From positions 1,426,001 through 1,490,000 of the forward strand of contig NZ_CP123990.1 in assembly GCF_029919115.1 (NCBI RefSeq): a DNA stretch of 64,000 nt. Reading direction: 5' to 3'. The first letter of the stretch is position 1. Each line of letters begins with the position of its first letter. This document shows positions 3,663 to 12,809 of this stretch, piece after piece. Source of the stretch: Variovorax paradoxus (lineage in GTDB: Bacteria > Pseudomonadota > Gammaproteobacteria > Burkholderiales > Burkholderiaceae_C). A program made the translations under genes and the position numbers. The notes beneath the pieces are model-generated. The model saw only the letters and a list, made by a program, of their open reading frames with translations, ran no database searches and was not told where the DNA came from.

Positions 3663-3734
3663 AGAGTGTTGCTTGCGCTTAAAGTAACTCCACGGCCGCA
3701 GCGCCCAACCTTCAATCAACCTCACGGAGTGACC

Positions 3735-5054
3735 ATGCCCCAGACCCTTACCGAACAACTGAGCCGCGAACAGCAAATTGCCGCCCTCGAGAAAGACTGG
3801 GCCACCAATCCCCGCTGGAAGGGCATCAAGCGCGGCTACAGCGCGGCCGACGTTGTGCGCCTTCGCGGCTCGTTCCCCATCGAGCACACGCTGGCCCGCC
3901 GCGGCGCCGAGAAGCTCTGGGAGCTGGTGAACAACGAGCCCTACGTCAACTGCCTCGGCGCGCTCACGGGCGGCCAGGCCATGCAGCAGGTGAAGGCCGG
4001 TGTGAAGGCCATCTACCTGTCGGGCTGGCAGGTTGCGGCAGATGCCAACAGCTATTCGTCGATGTATCCCGACCAGTCGCTGTATCCGGTGGATTCGGTG
4101 CCCAATGTGGTCGAGCGCATCAACAACACCTTCCGCCGCGCGGACGAAATCCAGTGGTCGAAGAACGTGAACCCGGGCGACAAGGGCTATGTCGATTATT
4201 TCGCCCCCATCGTTGCCGATGCCGAAGCAGGCTTTGGCGGCGTGCTGAACGGCTTCGAACTGATGAAGGCCATGATCAAGGCCGGCGCCGGCGGCGTGCA
4301 CTTCGAAGACCAGCTCGCCTCGGTCAAGAAGTGCGGCCACATGGGCGGCAAGGTGCTCGTGCCCACCACCGAGGCCGTGCAGAAGCTCATCGCAGCGCGC
4401 ATGGCGGCTGACGTTTGCGGCACGCCGACGCTCGTGATTGCACGCACCGATGCGGAAGCGGCCGACCTCATCACGAGCGACTACGACGAGAACGACAAGC
4501 CCTTCCTGACCGGTGAGCGCACCGCGGAGGGCTTCTACAAGACGAAGAAGGGCATGGAGCAGGCCATCAGCCGCGCCGTTGCCTACGCGTATTACGCCGA
4601 CCTGGTGTGGTGCGAAACCGGCACGCCCGACCTCGAATTTGCCCGCAAGTTCGCTGAAGCCGTGCACAAGGTGCACCCCGGCAAGATGTTGGCCTACAAC
4701 TGCTCGCCGTCGTTCAACTGGAAGAAGAACCTCGACGATGCGACCATTGCCAAGTTCCAGAAGGAGCTGGGCGCCATGGGCTACAAGTACCAGTTCATCA
4801 CGCTGGCCGGCATTCACTCGATGTGGTTCAACATGTTCGACCTGGCGCAAGACTACGTGCAGCGCGGCATGTCGGCCTATGTCGAGAAGGTGCAAGAGCC
4901 CGAGTTCGCAGCACGCGACCGCGGCTACACCTTCGTGTCGCACCAGCAGGAAGTGGGCACCGGCTACTTCGACGAGGTGACCACGGTCATCCAGGGCGGC
5001 AAGTCCAGCGTCACGGCGCTGACGGGCTCGACCGAAGAAGAACAGTTCCACTGA
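3735..5054 (+). CDS. aceA: Isocitrate lyase
   Basis: Cleaves isocitrate into glyoxylate and succinate, the first step of the glyoxylate shunt, allowing growth on acetate and fatty acids. The 439-residue protein has the family active-site loop KKCGHMGGK with catalytic Cys200, and the substrate/Mg2+ region [15 protein letters not shown]. Length matches the short bacterial class (about 430). Start at MPQTLTEQL is preceded by ACGGAG seven bases upstream; an upstream in-frame extension to 3666 has no homology and is rejected. Monocistronic, closed by two hairpins at 5067-5128. Two palindromes upstream suggest repression when acetate-type carbon is absent. Malate synthase is not in the window. Confidence 0.97.
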
Positions 5055-5066
5055 TCGGCCGTTACT

Positions 5067-5128
5067 CGAACCGCCTCCACAGGCGGTTCGCGGCCACCTA
5101 AGAGCCCGGCCCTGCGCCGGGTTTTTTT
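5067..5128 (+). terminator. Tandem hairpin terminator of aceA
   Basis: Two consecutive hairpins: CGAACCGCCT/AGGCGGTTCG (loop CCAC) at 5067-5090, then CCCGGC/GCCGGG at 5105-5121 followed by seven T. The second is a classical intrinsic terminator. Confidence 0.85.
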
Positions 5129-5225
5129 CATCTGGGCGTGCAAGACCCGATGCCGACGGCCTGAACCGGCAGCGGATAGAATTGCGGTCTCTGCACCCAA
5201 CAAGAGCGAGAAAGGCACCCTGGTT

Positions 5226-5291
5226 ATGACACCGCGAACTACTCCGCAAGGATTCAGCGGCTTTTTCTTCTTCGAAGGAAAAGGCCGGTAG
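5226..5291 (+). CDS. Leader peptide rich in Thr and Phe codons (thrS operon attenuator)
   Basis: A 21-codon ORF starts MTPRTT and continues to [10 protein letters not shown] before TAG at 5289-5291. It has three Thr codons (ACA, ACT, ACT, all unusual in this GC-rich genome) among its first six and five Phe codons (codons 10 and 13-16). AAAGG at 5211-5215 is a plausible ribosome-binding site, and TAGAAT at 5177-5182 a possible -10 box. Its neighbours are an alternative helix and an intrinsic terminator (5293-5359), then thrS and, further on, pheS-pheT. This is the arrangement of an amino-acid attenuator sensing charged tRNA-Thr and tRNA-Phe, the substrates made by the operon. Function is inferred. 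Confidence 0.7.
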
Positions 5292-5292
5292 A

Positions 5293-5338
5293 CCGCGCAC
5301 GCTGGTTTCTTCCAGCTCTCACACCAGGCAAAGCGCGG
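5293..5338 (+). promoter_or_regulatory. Candidate antiterminator helix
   Basis: CCGCGC (5293-5298) plus CTGGT (5302-5306) can pair with ACCAG (5323-5327) plus GCGCGG (5333-5338). This uses the left arm of the terminator, so the two structures exclude each other. The 5' arm starts two bases after the leader stop codon: a ribosome finishing the leader would cover it and favour termination, while one stalled on Phe or Thr codons would leave it free. Confidence 0.65.
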
Positions 5339-5359
5339 CAATCACCGCGCTTTTTTGTT
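5330..5359 (+). terminator. Intrinsic terminator of the thrS leader (attenuator)
   Basis: AAAGCGCGG, loop CAATCA, CCGCGCTTT, then TTTGTTTTT: a 9-bp GC-rich stem with a U-tract, ending about 20 bases before the thrS start codon. It lies upstream of the gene, so it can only act on leader transcripts. Confidence 0.8.
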
Positions 5360-5379
5360 TTTCGCCCAAGGTTTTTTCC

Positions 5380-7287
5380 ATGATCCAGATCACGCTTCCC
5401 GACAACTCGCGCCGCGAGTTCCCCGGCCCGGTTTCGGTGGCCGAAGTTGCCCAGTCCATCGGACCGGGGCTCGCCAAGATGACGGTGGCCGGCAAGGTCG
5501 ACGGCAAACTGGTCGATGCCAGCGACGTCATCGACCGCGACGCCAAGCTGCAGATCATCACGCCCAAGGACGACGAGGGCCTGGAGATCATCCGCCACTC
5601 GACGGCCCATCTGGTCGGCCATGCGGTGAAGCAGCTGTATCCGACGGCCAAGATGGTCATCGGCCCGGTGATCGAAGAGGGCTTTTATTACGACATTTCG
5701 TACGAGCGCCCCTTCACGCCCGAAGACATGGCGGCCATCGAGGCGCGCATGCGCGAGCTCATTGCGCAGGATTACGACGTGGTCAAGAAGATGACGCCGC
5801 GCGCCGAAGTCATCGAGGTGTTCAAGTCGCGCGGCGAAGACTACAAGCTGCGCCTCGTCGAGGACATGCCCGACGAGCAGGCCATGGGCCTGTACTACCA
5901 CCAGGAATACGTGGACATGTGCCGCGGCCCGCACGTGCCGAACACGCGCTTCCTGAAGGTCTTCAAGCTCACGAAGCTGGCCGGCGCCTACTGGCGCGGC
6001 GACGCCAAGAACGAGCAGCTGCAGCGTATCTACGGCACGGCCTGGGCCGACAAGAAGCAGCTCGACCAGTACATCCAGCGCATCGAAGAGGCCGAGAAGC
6101 GCGACCACCGCAAGCTGGGCAAGGAACTCGACCTGTTCCACATCGACGAAGTGGCGCCGGGCGTGGTGTTCTGGCACCCCAAGGGTTGGGCCGTGTGGCA
6201 GGCGGTGGAGCAGTACATGCGCGGCATCTACCGCGACACGGGCTACTGGGAAGTGAAGGGCCCGCAGATCCTGGACAAGAGCCTGTGGGAGAAAACGGGC
6301 CACTGGCAGAACTACCGCGACAACATGTTCACGACGGAATCGGAAAAGCGCGAATACGCGCTCAAGCCGATGAACTGCCCTGGCCATGTGCTCATCTTCA
6401 AGAGCGACCTGCGCAGCTACCGCGACCTGCCGCTGCGCTACGGCGAATTCGGCCAGTGCCACCGCAACGAACCCAGCGGCGCGCTGCACGGCATCATGCG
6501 CGTGCGCGGCTTCACGCAGGACGACGGCCACATCTTCTGCACGGAAGACCAGATCCTCGACGAGTGCATTGCGTACACCGAACAGCTGCAGAAGGTGTAT
6601 GCCGACTTCGGCTTCACGGACATCCTCTACAAGGTGGCCACACGGCCCGACAACCGCGTGGGCTCCGACGAGCTGTGGGACAAGGCCGAGCATGCCGTGA
6701 TGGAGGCGCTGCGCCGCTCCGGGGTCGACTTCATCATCTCTCCCGGCGACGGCGCCTTCTACGGCCCGAAGATCGAATACACGCTGAAGGACGCGCTGGG
6801 CCGCCAGTGGCAGTGCGGCACGATGCAGGTCGACTTCAACACGGCCGAGCGCCTGGGCGGCGAATACGTCACGGAATCGAGCGGCCGCGCCCATCCGGTC
6901 ATGCTGCACCGCGCCATCGTAGGTAGCCTGGAGCGCTTCATCGGCATGCTGATCGAACACCATGCCGGCGCACTGCCCGCATGGCTCGCTCCGGTGCAGG
7001 TGGCGGTGCTCAATATCAGCGAAGGGCAGGCGGATTACGCCGCTTCAGTGGCGAAAACGCTGCAGAATCAAGGGCTTAGGGTTCAGCTGGACCTGCACAA
7101 CGAGAAGATTACGTATAAAATACGCAAGCATTCGTTGCAAAAGCTTCCCTATATCCTCGTCGTAGGCGACAAGGAGAAGGAAGCCGGTGCCGTCGCAGTG
7201 CGCGCCCGGGGCAATCAAGACCTCGGTGCAATGTCCCTCGGATCGTTCGTACTACGGCTCGTTCAGGATATTGCTGACAAGCGTTGA
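5380..7287 (+). CDS. thrS: Threonyl-tRNA synthetase
   Basis: Charges tRNA-Thr with threonine in the cytosol and edits mis-serylated tRNA. The 635-residue protein has the full class II layout: TGS domain (about 1-60), editing domain with [11 protein letters not shown] near residue 70, catalytic core with the motif 2 region ([13 protein letters not shown]), zinc ligands including the Cys of MNCPGH, and a C-terminal anticodon-binding domain (about 540-635). Length is normal. The start ATG follows the attenuator region, and the protein aligns from its first residue ([10 protein letters not shown]). First structural gene of thrS-infC-rpmI-rplT-pheS-pheT-ihfA. Confidence 0.98.
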
Positions 7288-7399: not shown

Positions 7400-8005
7400 A
7401 TCGCTACTGCATTTCGCGACCGCCGCCACCGCGAGGAACGCCAACACCGCCTGAACCGGGAAATCATGGCCCCGGAAGTCCGCCTTGTAGGCCCGGAAAA
7501 CGAGCCATTGGGTGTTATGAGTCTCTCCGAGGCCTTGCGCCTCGCCGGTGAGGCTGACGTGGATCTGGTCGAGGTCGTTGCCGCGGCCAACCCGCCTGTC
7601 TGTCGTCTGATCGAGTACGGCAAGTTCAAGTACCACGAGCAGAAGAAGGCGGCCGAGGCAAAGTCGAAGCAGAAGGTCATCGAGGTCAAGGAAATCAAGT
7701 TCCGGCCCGGTACCGACGATGGTGACTACAACATCAAGATGCGCAACATCAAGCGCTTTCTTGAAGAGGGCGACAAATGCAAGATCACGCTGCGCTTTCG
7801 CGGCCGCGAGATCACGCACCAGGAGCTCGGTTTGGCTTTGCTGCAGCGCATTCGCGATGAGTTGGGCGACCTGATCGTCGTCGAGCAGTTCCCGAAGCTC
7901 GAAGGCCGGCAGATGATCATGATGATCGCTCCGGGCCGAAAGAAGCCGGGCGGCGGTACCGCCAAGCCGGCGTCGTCGGAAACGTCGGCGCCTGCAGCAG
8001 CCTGA
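7400..8005 (+). CDS. infC: Translation initiation factor IF-3, with a non-AUG (ATC) start
   Basis: IF-3 binds the 30S subunit and proofreads start-codon and initiator-tRNA selection. No ATG, GTG or TTG gives a full-length protein. The first ATG (7466) would remove the conserved N-terminal segment [15 protein letters not shown]. An ATC at 7400, nine bases after GAAGG, restores it and gives about 201 residues. A rare start codon is the known autoregulatory device of infC (AUU in E. coli), since IF-3 discriminates against it. N-domain, basic linker ([16 protein letters not shown]) and C-domain are intact; the tail is Pro/Ala rich. Operon gene between thrS and rpmI. Confidence 0.93.
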
Positions 8006-8767: not shown

Positions 8768-8848
8768 AGCAGGGCGGCTGTCTTCGTGGCAGCCTCCTGC
8801 GCCCACGACACAAGGGCTGGCGCTTGAAAAGGCTCCAGCTCTTTTTTT
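8768..8848 (+). terminator. Hairpin pair with U-tract between rplT and pheS
   Basis: The first hairpin pairs GCAGG...GGCTG with CAGCC...CCTGC (about 8769-8800). The second pairs GGGCTGG (8814-8820) with CCAGCTC (8835-8841) and is followed by seven T. The second looks like a leaky or regulated intrinsic terminator that would set the ratio of ribosomal-protein to pheST transcripts. No Phe-rich leader peptide was found here, unlike pheM of E. coli at the same place. Confidence 0.55.
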
Positions 8849-8874: not shown

Positions 8875-9951
8875 ATGAACGAGTTGGACTCCCTGGTCGA
8901 CACCGCACGCGTTGCCTTCGCCGAAGCGAAAACGCCCGCCGAGCTCGAGAACGCCAAGGCGCAGTTCCTCGGCAAATCGGGCCGCATCACCGAGCTGATG
9001 AAGGGCATGGCCGCGCTCAGCGTCGACGAGAAGAAGTCGCGCGGCGCCGCAATCAATGTGGCCAAGCAGGCCATCGAGTCCGCACTGACCGAACGCCGCC
9101 AGCAGCTGGCGGACGAGGAGCTTTCGCAACAGCTGCGCGCAGAAGCGCTTGACGTGAGCCTGCCTGGCCGCCGCCGCATTCCGGGCGGCCTGCACCCGGT
9201 GAGCCGCACCCTGGAGCGCATCGAGGAGATCTTCTCGAGCATGGGCTTCGACGTGGCCGACGGCCCGGAGATCGAGAGCGACTGGCACAGCTTCACCTCG
9301 CTCAACAACCCGCCGAACCATCCGGCGCGTTCGATGCAGGACACGTTCTATGTCGACCTGAACGGCGACGACGGCATTCCGTACAACCTGCGTCCGCACA
9401 CCAGCCCGATGCAGGTGCGCTATGCGCATCAGCACATCAAGAAGTACGCGGCCGAGTTCGCGGCCGCAGCCGCAGACACCACCGGTGCCGTCAAGGCGCC
9501 CGAGATCCGCGTGATTGCGCCGGGCCGCACCTACCGTGTAGACAGCGATGCCACCCACTCGCCCATGTTCCACCAGTGCGAAGGCCTGTGGCTTGGCGAG
9601 AACGTGAGCTTCAAGGACCTGAAGGTCGTCTTCACGGACTTCTGCCGTACCTTCTTCGAGAGCGACGACCTCGTGCTGCGCTTTCGGCCGAGCTTCTTCC
9701 CGTTTACCGAGCCCAGCGCCGAGATCGACATCCAGTTTGCGAGCGGCCCGCTCGCCGGCCGCTGGCTCGAAGTCGCGGGCTCTGGCCAAGTGCACCCGAA
9801 CGTGGTGCGCAACATGGGGCTCGACCCGGAGCGCTACATCGGCTTTGCCTTTGGCATGGGCCCCGACCGGCTCACGATGCTGCGCTACGGCGTGAACGAT
9901 TTGCGGCTGTTCTTCGACGGCGACTTGCGCTTTCTCTCGCAGTTCCAGTAA
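8875..9951 (+). CDS. pheS: Phenylalanyl-tRNA synthetase alpha subunit
   Basis: Catalytic subunit of the (alpha-beta)2 enzyme that charges tRNA-Phe. The 358-residue protein begins with the coiled-coil arm (about 1-90). It then has class II motifs, including motif 2 around [20 protein letters not shown] and the terminal [19 protein letters not shown]. Start ATG 8875 gives the standard [13 protein letters not shown]-terminus; an in-frame extension upstream through rplT is rejected. Partner pheT follows after 39 bases. Confidence 0.98.
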
Positions 9952-9990: not shown

Positions 9991-12432
9991 ATGCAATTCC
10001 CGGAATCCTGGCTGCGCGAGTTCTGCAATCCGCCCCTCGGCAGCGCCGAACTGGCCGAAACGCTCACCATGGGCGGTTTCGAGGTCGAAGAGCGCCGCCC
10101 CGTCGCGCCGCCCTTCAGCCGCATCGTGGTCGGCGAAATCAAGGAAGCCGTGCAGCACCCCAATGCCGATCGGCTGCGCGTGTGCCAAGTCGACGTGGGG
10201 CAGGGCGCCTTGCTCAACATCGTGTGCGGCGCACCCAATGCGCGCGTCGGCATCAAGGTGCCTTGCGCGCTGGTCGGCGCCGAACTGCCGCCGGGCGAAG
10301 ACGGCAAGCCCTTTCTCATCAAGCTCGGCAAGCTGCGTGGTGTCGAGAGCCAAGGCATGCTGTGCTCCGCACGCGAACTGCAATTGAGCGAAGACCATGG
10401 GGGCCTGCTCGAGCTCGACGCCGGTGCGCCCATTGGCGCCGACGTGCGCGACGTGCTCAAGCTCGACGACGCGCTGCTCACCCTCAAGCTCACGCCCAAC
10501 CTTGCCCACGGCCTGAGCGTCTACGGTGTTGCGCGCGAACTCGCAGCGCTCACCGGCGCGCCGCTCAAGACGCCGGCCATCCCGCCGGTGGCCGCATCGT
10601 TTGCCGATGTGCTGCCGGTGAAGGTGGAAGCACCCGAACTCTGCGGCCGTTTTTCGGGCCGCATTGTGCGCGGTGTGAACACCAAGGTGGCCACGCCGGC
10701 ATGGATGGTCGAGCGGCTTGCGCGCTGCGGCCAACGCAGCGTGACGCCGCTGGTCGACATCTCGAACTACGTCATGTTCGAATACGGCCAGCCCAGCCAC
10801 ATCTTCGACCTCGACAAGATCCATGGCGGCCTCACGGTGCGCTGGGGCAAGGCGGGCGAACAGCTCAAGCTGCTGAACGGCAACACCATCAGCGTCGACG
10901 ACAAGGTCGGCGTGATTGCCGACAACGAGGCCGTCGAGTCACTCGCCGGCATCATGGGCGGCGACGCGACCTCCGTGTCCGACGACACTCGCAACATCTA
11001 CGTCGAGGCCGCCTTCTGGTGGCCCGAAGCCGTTCAGGGCCGCTCGCGCCGCTTCAACTTTTCGACCGACGCAGGGCACCGCTATGAGCGCGGTGTCGAT
11101 CCGAGCCGCACGGTGGAGATCATCGAGCGCATCACGCAGCTCATCATCGAGATCTGCGGCGGCCAGGCCGGCGCCATGGACGACAAGATCCTGAACGTGC
11201 CCGAAGCCATGCCGGTCACGTTGCGCGTGGCACGCGCAGCGCGCGTCATCGGCATGCCGCTCACGCAGGCGCAATGCGCCGACGCGCTGCGCCGCCTCGG
11301 CTTTGCCCTCAGCGAAGGCGAGGGCACATTGACCGTGACTCCGCCGCCGCATCGCTTCGACCTGCTGATCGAGGAAGACCTGATCGAAGAGGTTGCGCGC
11401 CTCATCGGCTTCAACAACCTGCCGACCACGGCGCCGCTGGCGCCCATCACGGCACGTGTGCGTCCCGAGGCGCAGCGCAGCCGCTTCGCGGTGCGCCGCA
11501 GCATCGCGGCGCTCGGCTACCAGGAAACCATCAACTTCAGCTTCGTGGAAGCGCATTGGGAGCAAGACCTCGCCGGCAATGCCAACCCCGTCAAGCTGCT
11601 GAACCCCATCGCCAGCCAGATGAGCGTGATGCGCTCGTCGCTGATCGGCTCGCTGCTGCAGGTGCTCAAGTTCAATCTCGACCGCAAGGCGCCGCGCGTG
11701 CGCGTGTTCGAACTGGGCCGCGTGTTCATGCGCGACGACAGCGTGGCCACCACCGACAGCACCGTACGCGGCGTACACCAGCCGATGCGGGTGGCCGGCC
11801 TTGCATGGGGCGATGCCGAAGAAGCGCGCTGGGACGGCAAGCCGCATCGTGTCGACTTCTACGACGCCAAGGGCGACGTCGAAGCATTGCTCGCGCCGCT
11901 GGTGCCGAGCTTCGAGGCGGCCGAGCATCCCGCCCTGCACCCCGGCCGCTCGGCGCGCGTGCTGATCGACGGCAAGGCCATCGGCTTTGTCGGCGAGCTG
12001 CACCCGCGCTGGCGCCAGAAGTGGGACTTTGCGCTGGCCCCGGTGATCTTCGAACTGGACCTCGACGCCGTTGCCGCGCGCCCCGTGCCCGTGGCAAAGC
12101 CTGTGCCCAAGCACCAGGCCGTCGAGCGCGACATCGCCGTGGTGGTGGCCGAGGCCGTCACGCACAATGCGTTGATGCAGACCATCCATTCGGCTGCGGC
12201 AGCCCAGGGGCTGCTGCGGGACGCCACGCTGTTCGACATCTATCGCCCGCAACCTGCGCGCGACGGTGCCGTGCCGGCATCGGGAGGCCTGGCGCACGGG
12301 GACAAGAGCATGGCGGTGCGCCTGAGCTTCCAGGACGACAACGCCACGCTGACGGACGAGCAGGTGGAGCCGGCCGTGCGCGCCATCGTCGAACAATTGA
12401 GCGCCAAGCTCGGCGCACGCCTGAGGGGTTGA
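9991..12432 (+). CDS. pheT: Phenylalanyl-tRNA synthetase beta subunit
   Basis: The 813-residue beta subunit completes the PheST heterotetramer, binding tRNA and editing Tyr-tRNA-Phe. Domains in order: N-terminal B1 with an EMAP/OB-type tRNA-binding fold (about 40-150), B3/B4 editing domain (DISNYVMFEYGQPSHIFD is typical), B5, the catalytic-like core (VRVFELGRVF), and a C-terminal ferredoxin-like anticodon-binding domain (KHQAVERDIAVVV). Normal length. The stop codon overlaps the ihfA ATG by one base, suggesting translational coupling. Confidence 0.98.
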   Translation: MQFPESWLREFCNPPLGSAELAETLTMGGFEVEERRPVAPPFSRIVVGEIKEAVQHPNADRLRVCQVDVGQGALLNIVCGAPNARVGIKVPCALVGAELPPGEDGKPFLIKLGKLRGVESQGMLCSARELQLSEDHGGLLELDAGAPIGADVRDVLKLDDALLTLKLTPNLAHGLSVYGVARELAALTGAPLKTPAIPPVAASFADVLPVKVEAPELCGRFSGRIVRGVNTKVATPAWMVERLARCGQRSVTPLVDISNYVMFEYGQPSHIFDLDKIHGGLTVRWGKAGEQLKLLNGNTISVDDKVGVIADNEAVESLAGIMGGDATSVSDDTRNIYVEAAFWWPEAVQGRSRRFNFSTDAGHRYERGVDPSRTVEIIERITQLIIEICGGQAGAMDDKILNVPEAMPVTLRVARAARVIGMPLTQAQCADALRRLGFALSEGEGTLTVTPPPHRFDLLIEEDLIEEVARLIGFNNLPTTAPLAPITARVRPEAQRSRFAVRRSIAALGYQETINFSFVEAHWEQDLAGNANPVKLLNPIASQMSVMRSSLIGSLLQVLKFNLDRKAPRVRVFELGRVFMRDDSVATTDSTVRGVHQPMRVAGLAWGDAEEARWDGKPHRVDFYDAKGDVEALLAPLVPSFEAAEHPALHPGRSARVLIDGKAIGFVGELHPRWRQKWDFALAPVIFELDLDAVAARPVPVAKPVPKHQAVERDIAVVVAEAVTHNALMQTIHSAAAAQGLLRDATLFDIYRPQPARDGAVPASGGLAHGDKSMAVRLSFQDDNATLTDEQVEPAVRAIVEQLSAKLGARLRG

Positions 12433-12809
12433 TGAGAATGAACGCTGCGGAATTCACGCTCGAAGCCCTCGAAACGCCCGCACTCACGAAGGCGCACCTG
12501 GCCGACCTGCTGTTCGAGCAGATCGGCCTGAACAAGCGCGAATCCAAGGACATGGTGGAGGCGTTTTTCGACCTCATCGCCAACAGCCTGATCGAAGGCA
12601 CGGACGTGAAGATCTCCGGCTTCGGCAACTTCCAGATCCGTGTGAAGGCGCCCCGGCCTGGCCGCAACCCGCGCACCGGCGAAGCCATTCCGATCGGCGA
12701 GCGCCGCGTGGCCACCTTTCACGCGAGCGCCAAGCTGAAGGAACAGATTCACGGAAGCATCGAGCAGAGCGGCACTTCCGAAGTCGAGTGGAGCCTGGGC
12801 GCCGAATAG
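12432..12809 (+). CDS. ihfA: Integration host factor alpha subunit
   Basis: A DNA-bending nucleoid protein that works as a heterodimer with IhfB. The 125-residue product has the complete HU/IHF fold, with the beta-arm sequence PRPGRNPRTGEAIPI and the upstream KISGFGNFQIR. It is longer than the 99-residue E. coli protein, with a short N-terminal extension and an acidic C-terminal tail (SEVEWSLGAE). Two start codons are possible (12432, overlapping the pheT stop, or 12438). The last gene of the thrS operon proper, as in enteric bacteria. Confidence 0.96.
   Translation: MRMNAAEFTLEALETPALTKAHLADLLFEQIGLNKRESKDMVEAFFDLIANSLIEGTDVKISGFGNFQIRVKAPRPGRNPRTGEAIPIGERRVATFHASAKLKEQIHGSIEQSGTSEVEWSLGAE

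Follow-up and report, generated by a model that had tools for sequence, protein, structure and literature searches.

The short leader upstream of thrS in the window studied here, a stretch of 64,000 nucleotides of Variovorax paradoxus DNA, is probably a ribosome-mediated transcription attenuator which reports a shortage of threonyl-tRNA and controls the thrS-infC-rpmI-rplT-pheST-ihfA operon. Comparison of the leader with its relatives shows a near-invariant initiation block carrying threonine codons at positions 2 and 5, and mostly at 6, with a terminator past the reading frame. Furthermore, folding supports a predicted state without ribosome in which the strand at the ribosome-binding site (RBS) and start pairs with the segment before the terminator, in a helix designated P1, and the antiterminator is not formed. 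An earlier note on this DNA had proposed that the leader reads both threonine and phenylalanine charging; the attenuator ahead of the operon and the reading of threonine are supported while the sensing of phenylalanine is not, and the leader most likely senses Thr shortage rather than Phe. If this holds, the leader adds a layer of control, observed in eight or more families of a single order, to a core translation operon which E. coli controls quite differently. It also raises the question of why an attenuator leader keeps rare synonymous codons and the bases before its AUG, since, to our knowledge, such leaders usually keep the amino acid alone.

The leader and its conserved initiation block

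The leader lies between aceA (isocitrate lyase, 3666-5054), behind which a sequence scan gives a terminator-like site at 5108-5123, and thrS (threonyl-tRNA synthetase, 5380-7287; TIGR00418, 723 bits), all features named here being on the forward strand. A likely -10 element, TAGAAT, is found at 5177-5182 in a form that is conserved among the leaders: in 102 of 119 leaders the best TATAAT match in the 45 nt preceding the block fits TANNNT, and its score is at least 6 in 92/119, compared to 5/119 when the search is shifted upstream by 60 nt. A promoter scan returned no site. Downstream of thrS follow infC (IF-3, 7400-8005; TIGR00168 on 7466-8002, start assigned by reading), rpmI (L35, 8172-8375; position and translation read by eye), rplT (L20, 8400-8759; family search), pheS (8875-9951; position and reading), pheT (9991-12432; family search) and ihfA (12432-12809, start at 12432 or 12438; position and reading). 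The infC frame opens with ATC and has no ATG where one is expected, reminiscent of E. coli infC, whose AUU start serves the autoregulation of IF-3. By eye, the rplT-pheS gap contains a terminator-like 7-bp stem (GGGCTGG/CCAGCTC, 14-nt loop, T run) at 8814-8848, which is left out by a terminator scan allowing loops up to 8.

The leader ORF has 21 codons, from the ATG at 5226 to the TAG at 5289-5291, with Thr at codons 2, 5 and 6 and Phe at codons 10 and 13-16, and is preceded by a conserved Shine-Dalgarno sequence, AGAAAGG (5209-5215); all of this was present as first described. The Thr codons are also rightly termed rare, since ACA and ACT represent 2 and 4 of the 118 Thr codons of seven coding sequences of the window. 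One feature that the earlier note missed is a 41-nt conserved block (5202-5242) comprising the Shine-Dalgarno sequence, the spacer, the start and codons 2-6, with the 18-nt core GTTATGACACCGCGAACT at 5223-5240.

It is above all the recurrence of this 5' part before thrS in relatives that makes the leader more than chance. Indeed, the core was found upstream of thrS in all 30 congeneric loci obtained. From a family sample of 200 genomes, with thrS at cut-off in 191 and its upstream region read in 110, the 19-nt core GGTTATGACACCGCGAACT was present upstream of thrS in 95 of the 110 when up to five substitutions were allowed (27 of 30 loci and 68 of 80 fetched regions). Given that 75 of the 95 have no substitution, 15 have one, five have two and none has three to five, the invariance of GGTTATGACACCGCGAACT, which extends to its wobble bases, is not made by the cut-off. 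Carriers include Variovorax paradoxus, Xenophilus, Pseudacidovorax, Aquincola, Comamonas aquatica, Piscinibacter, Roseateles, Paucibacter and Acidovorax facilis, and the core was not found in the loci of Malikia, Extensimonas and three Limnohabitans. By eye, a number of the family genomes lacking the core still have a terminator shortly after a -10-like element. In a Polaromonas MAG (L131), most of the block is kept with ATA at the leader start and the Thr5 codon lost, possibly a decaying copy.

Across the order, a 3-mismatch pattern matched 17 of 399 genomes from three families and a sequence model matched 35 of 250 at E ≤ 0.01; thrS was beside the model match in 21 of the 24 order loci inspected (of 30 loci) and absent beside three, and the five model matches without a locus were weak. 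At least eight of the order's families (f1, f3, f8, f10, f32, f35, f39, f47) contain exact GTTATGACACCGCGAACT, with AT-rich surroundings, by eye, in f35. When one genome was taken from each of 20 families (including f3 and f10), three matched within six substitutions and 17 gave no match. Class-wide, with E ≤ 0.001 as threshold, the block was found in 3 of 274 genomes, each belonging to the own family. Hence, the block is common in its own family, present in several others and was not found in many. The own genome has one full copy; the 3-mismatch pattern gave one other place there (three mismatches) and the sequence model one other weak match (E 3.6). Some of the 17 non-matching families show, by eye, leaders with a CGA-ACN pair (MTLRTC, MQRTST, MGFRTC).

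In order to examine the block at the nucleotide level, 120 distinct leaders with at most seven substitutions to the 41 nt were retained after deduplication on 110 nt. This set leaves out 32 of the 95 family leaders, which are duplicates, have more substitutions or differ in spacer length. Across the 120 leaders, GAAAGGC and GGTTATGACACCGCGAAC show hardly any variation; what varies is the sequence past codon 6 and the three to four bases separating the two motifs. Thr2 is conserved in 120/120, Thr5 in 119/120 and Thr6 in 100/120, and in the 92 leaders from other genera Thr accounts for 19.7% of the residues past codon 6. The comparison of thrS upstream regions, which the earlier note had suggested, bears out the conservation of the Thr codons and not that of the Phe codons.

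The constraint extends to the choice among synonymous codons. In the 95 less selected leaders ACA is present in 93, CCG in 94, CGA in 93 and ACT in 81 (ACG in 14). As a wobble control, invariant thrS sites (4 Thr, 13 Pro and 16 Arg sites) were examined in 82 genomes, where ACA and ACT represent 12 and 9 of 328 Thr codons and CGA 19 of 1310 Arg codons, while the leaders of the same 82 genomes have ACA in 81, CCG in 82, CGA in 78 and ACT in 76. At these thrS sites, the mean share of the commonest codon is 0.75 for Thr, 0.69 for Pro and 0.80 for Arg, and the commonest codons overall are ACG, CCG and CGC. By this control, the rare synonymous codons of the leader and the bases before its AUG appear to be under selection, and a plain count of Thr codons does not account for the invariance of CCG, CGA and GTT. 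Thr tRNAs with anticodons GGU, UGU and CGU were found among the best 30 of 48 tRNA places; ACA and ACT are presumably read by different ones (UGU and GGU), which may be one reason for the codon constraint. In addition, the complementarity of GGUUAUGA to an initiator-type tRNA-Met extends past the anticodon into the loop, a lead towards a putative extended pairing of the leader with the initiator tRNA. For E. coli, a pairing of A4 with U33 of the initiator tRNA has been proposed, according to an excerpt of PMC9841429.

Leader folding and ribosome position

The region 5200-5365 folds better than 200 of 200 dinucleotide shuffles (z -4.35). The intrinsic terminator before thrS (5330-5359; arms 5330-5338 and 5345-5353, followed by a U tract), already recognised in the earlier note, is the longer of two terminator-like sites in 4900-5500, and a terminator was found past the leader ORF in all 120 leaders by a permissive search with no shuffle baseline of its own. 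An attenuator is indicated both by a conserved leader ORF with codons of the regulated amino acid and by an intrinsic terminator between this ORF and the gene. The proposed antiterminator excluding the terminator was likewise recovered by fold prediction, with CCGCGC at 5293-5298 pairing with GCGCGG at 5333-5338, which is part of the terminator 5' arm; a small hairpin GCUGG/CCAGC is predicted at 5301-5316. Taken alone, the pairing of the post-stop sequence with the terminator exceeds that of shuffles only to a modest extent, with a mean z of 1.17 and 13 of 119 leaders below rank 0.05. A classical 1:2 helix between the leader codons CCGCGAAC and the post-stop strand was tried and rejected: it is above z 1.65 in 21 of 119 leaders but is not general, because the matches are mostly leaders with GTTCGCG after the stop (by eye).

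The helix P1, missed at first, joins CCUGGU at the RBS and start (5219-5224) to ACCAGG (5323-5328), one base before the terminator, and in the predicted folds would let the RBS region, and not only the post-stop arm, decide the outcome. P1 was tested by permuting ungapped strands; structure counts from a MAFFT alignment were dropped because its gaps displace the 3' strand. Among 30 genus-like leaders, the pairing score was 14.73 with own partners versus 13.20 with permuted ones (0/10000; repeats 1/5000, and 1 and 2/5000), these permutation p-values, like those below, being optimistic because the sequences are related. At least five contiguous pairs in one register are formed in 24 of the 30 and are absent in the other six (L018, L023, L032, L061, L062, L064), and in L022 both strands have changed (GGUU to GGCU and AACC to AGCC). 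In other lineages the variable spacer pairs with post-stop sequence using other letters, such as GCACCCTG/CAGGGTGC in L144 and GCAATCT/AGATTGC in L106 and L123. Outside the genus, P1-type pairing was equalled in 10/5000 permutations (n=84), 13/5000 after thinning and 23/5000 with another search window, compared to 3226/5000 for a control region; with a longer strand it was not significant (386/5000).

The effect of ribosome position was modelled by folding the transcript up to the terminator 5' arm with 34-38 nt masked as ribosome, for 119 of the 120 leaders, so that the values below are those of equilibrium folding with an assumed footprint on related sequences. On average, the arm was held by some upstream segment with a probability of 0.52 without ribosome, 0.79 and 0.74 with a ribosome at codons 2 and 5, 0.52 at codon 10 and 0.55 at the stop, compared to 0.67, 0.71, 0.68, 0.64 and 0.66 in the same order (none, codon 2, codon 5, codon 10, stop) with shuffled spacers. 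The gain at codon 2 over no ribosome is thus 0.27 versus 0.04 for shuffled spacers. Codon 2 exceeds the state without ribosome by 0.1 in 81 of 119 leaders and the stop by 0.1 in 83; hence about a third of the leaders (L011, L014, L015 and L018 for instance) show no switch in the model. With the ribosome at the stop, 78/119 leaders still hold the arm at a probability of at least 0.5, as do 64/119 without ribosome. Stalls with Thr in the A site hold the arm at 0.69 on average and those at other codons at 0.61. The window leader displays the switch clearly, with an antiterminator probability of 0.94-0.99 at codons 2-7 and of 0.02 without ribosome, P1 being then at 0.96; further along, the values are 0.00-0.16 at codons 8-16, 0.72 and 0.95 at codons 17-18 and 0.00-0.03 at codons 19-22. 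According to the folding model, there is therefore a ribosome-dependent, exclusive antiterminator, which is clear in the window and seen as an average against shuffles elsewhere. The claim that the leader reads Thr is sustained by the conserved Thr codons, the terminator in 120/120 leaders and a fold switch not reproduced with shuffled spacers.

In the proposed mechanism, a ribosome short of threonyl-tRNA would wait at codons 2-6 while still on the RBS and would block P1; the post-stop CCGCGC would then be free to take the terminator 5' arm, and RNA polymerase would read through. With plentiful threonyl-tRNA the ribosome would move on, and either P1 or a ribosome at the stop codon would prevent the antiterminator, so that transcription would stop. 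A waiting ribosome would thus act from the RBS, which would explain why the sensor codons adjoin the start.

Alternative readings of the leader

That the leader reads Phe as well as Thr charging, as the earlier note held, is unlikely. The window leader has five Phe codons, 17 of the 28 distinct genus leaders carry runs of at least three Phe (one of them, L021, has FFF in a lengthened frame only), pheST is within the operon and no Phe leader ORF was seen before pheS in the rplT-pheS gap. However, such runs occur in 0 of the 92 other leaders and FFF is missing from 11 of the 28 inside the genus; the conserved Phe codons of a pheM-like attenuator are thus not found among the 120 leaders. The Phe run forms the 5' arm of a pre-stop hairpin over the Phe codons and the ORF end (5258-5287; arms 5258-5268 and 5277-5287), which the earlier note had described, which folding does predict and which persists with other sequences in Phe-poor relatives. 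For this hairpin, 92.4% of the alignment cells are paired compared to 40-70% when it is slid, and the covariation score is 0.283 versus 0.133-0.262; by a weaker measure, 10 cells are changed on both sides versus 5 to 15 slid, and pairs changed on both sides are not above shuffles (86/500). Most likely, the Phe run of the own subclade is incidental to a hairpin arm rich in pyrimidines. In the model, the window antiterminator reaches 0.01-0.15 with a single ribosome of normal footprint placed at Phe 13-16, compared to 0.02 without ribosome, and in 16 FFF leaders the arm is held at 0.67-0.80 at the Phe codons, 0.70 without ribosome and 0.92-0.95 at codons 2-7. Given these window values, start-adjacent Thr stalls would switch the leader and single Phe stalls would not; in the model, the antiterminator would form at the Phe codons with a second ribosome on the start (0.77-0.98 at Phe 13-16) or with the whole Phe run masked over 46 nt (0.56 and 0.68 in two slightly different counts).

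The nature of the block suggests other readings. Somewhat less improbable than Phe sensing, though still doubtful, is that the block programs a special pause at initiation or early elongation, in which GGUUAUGA would pair over a longer stretch with the loop of the initiator tRNA, and Pro and the rare codon CGA would follow. The leader would then report general translation capacity or ribosome-targeting drugs and not Thr alone. The invariant part does correspond to the ribosome footprint at initiation (its size being taken from general knowledge), GGTTATGA is complementary in register to UCAUAACC of the initiator-type tRNA-Met, CGA is 1 of 196 Arg codons in the seven coding sequences of the window, and an E. 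coli uORF sensing several drug classes exists, according to an excerpt of PMC12121999. On the other hand, the tRNA match was found post hoc, a match of 8 nt to some member of the tRNA set is not very improbable, and both the Thr enrichment past codon 6 and the site before thrS point to Thr. A related idea, which we hold as tentative and give a slightly better chance, is that the initiating ribosome itself is the sensor: the 18-nt sequence would set a slow start, in which the initiator tRNA would pair beyond its anticodon, the first A site would hold a Thr codon, and Pro and the rare CGA would come next; while waiting, the ribosome would cover the strand at its own RBS. Both synthetases, IF-3, L35, L20 and IHF would then be tied by one leader either to the charging of Thr tRNA or to the speed of early elongation. 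Two trans-acting schemes are both very improbable. Invariance at the RNA level suggests a partner in trans and thrS heads the operon, as would suit ThrRS binding to a block that mimics tRNA-Thr, but 5220-5242 (23 nt) shares no identical or complementary run of 8 or more with the three Thr tRNAs (from the best 30 of 48 tRNA places, one Gly match outside the tRNA body being left out), and RNAalifold gives no anticodon-like hairpin with covariation in the block. As for the terminated leader acting as a small RNA with the block as seed, a short invariant stretch next to variable sequence and a terminator are present, yet the block lies at the Shine-Dalgarno sequence and start codon, keeps its reading frame and has one full genome copy.

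Known leaders and neighbouring arrangements

The kind of element proposed here, a Thr attenuator, is known; this family, its invariant initiation block and its start-proximal mode were not found in Rfam or the open papers searched. In the whole window, tRNA was the only Rfam match above the gathering score and no T-box matched, while 5150-5400 gave, up to E 10, six weak matches and no Thr leader. No Burkholderiales thrS leader appeared among the matches listed in the open-licence literature. The enterobacterial thrLABC leader (Rfam Thr_leader) has a short ORF rich in the regulated amino acid with a terminator and an antiterminator, as is the case here, but the present leader differs by its synthetase/ribosomal operon, its sensor codons from codon 2 and its near-invariant start nucleotides. 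E. coli pheM-pheST, a Phe leader attenuator, has the same gene neighbourhood and the window leader has Phe codons; however, the latter lies before thrS and not pheST, and it is Thr and not Phe codons that are conserved. In the E. coli trp leader, distal RNA folds back on the leader RBS and ribosome position decides the fold, as proposed here, whereas its sensing codons are well inside the ORF instead of adjoining the start. The E. coli thrS operator, to which ThrRS binds to repress its own translation, also controls thrS but, unlike it, the present leader has a terminator and an ORF; no tRNA-Thr-like run of 8 or more was found in 5220-5242. ThrRS autoregulation is mentioned in an excerpt of PMC2965389. 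A leader in the same position is thrL before thrS in Streptomyces lividans, a predicted Thr-dependent leader peptide which, as far as the excerpt of PMC8079986 goes, differs by its sequence (MKRVRPFLETTPGFVPAR, unrelated to the present one), Thr at 10-11, a leaderless transcript and unclear termination.

Other arrangements were observed upstream of thrS. Five loci (L121, L129, L133, L187, L210) have no leader block and display a GCGCGG-type terminator shortly after a -10-like element, directly before thrS (AACGCGGC in L133). Xanthomonads (L072, L074, L077, L079, L085) have a different short Thr ORF upstream of thrS, such as METTRIPR (L077) or MSTTIAHR (L074), which follows TGCGACATG in L072, L077 and L079 and is possibly an independent Thr attenuator. 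In other Burkholderiales families (L268, L269, L273, L275, L276, L279, L280, L283, L285, L286), an apparent tRNA-Val (GAC, by eye) is found shortly before thrS. Pandoraea bronchicola (L134) has a leader with CGA-ACT and another start, MFMIARTFTVVKVRR.
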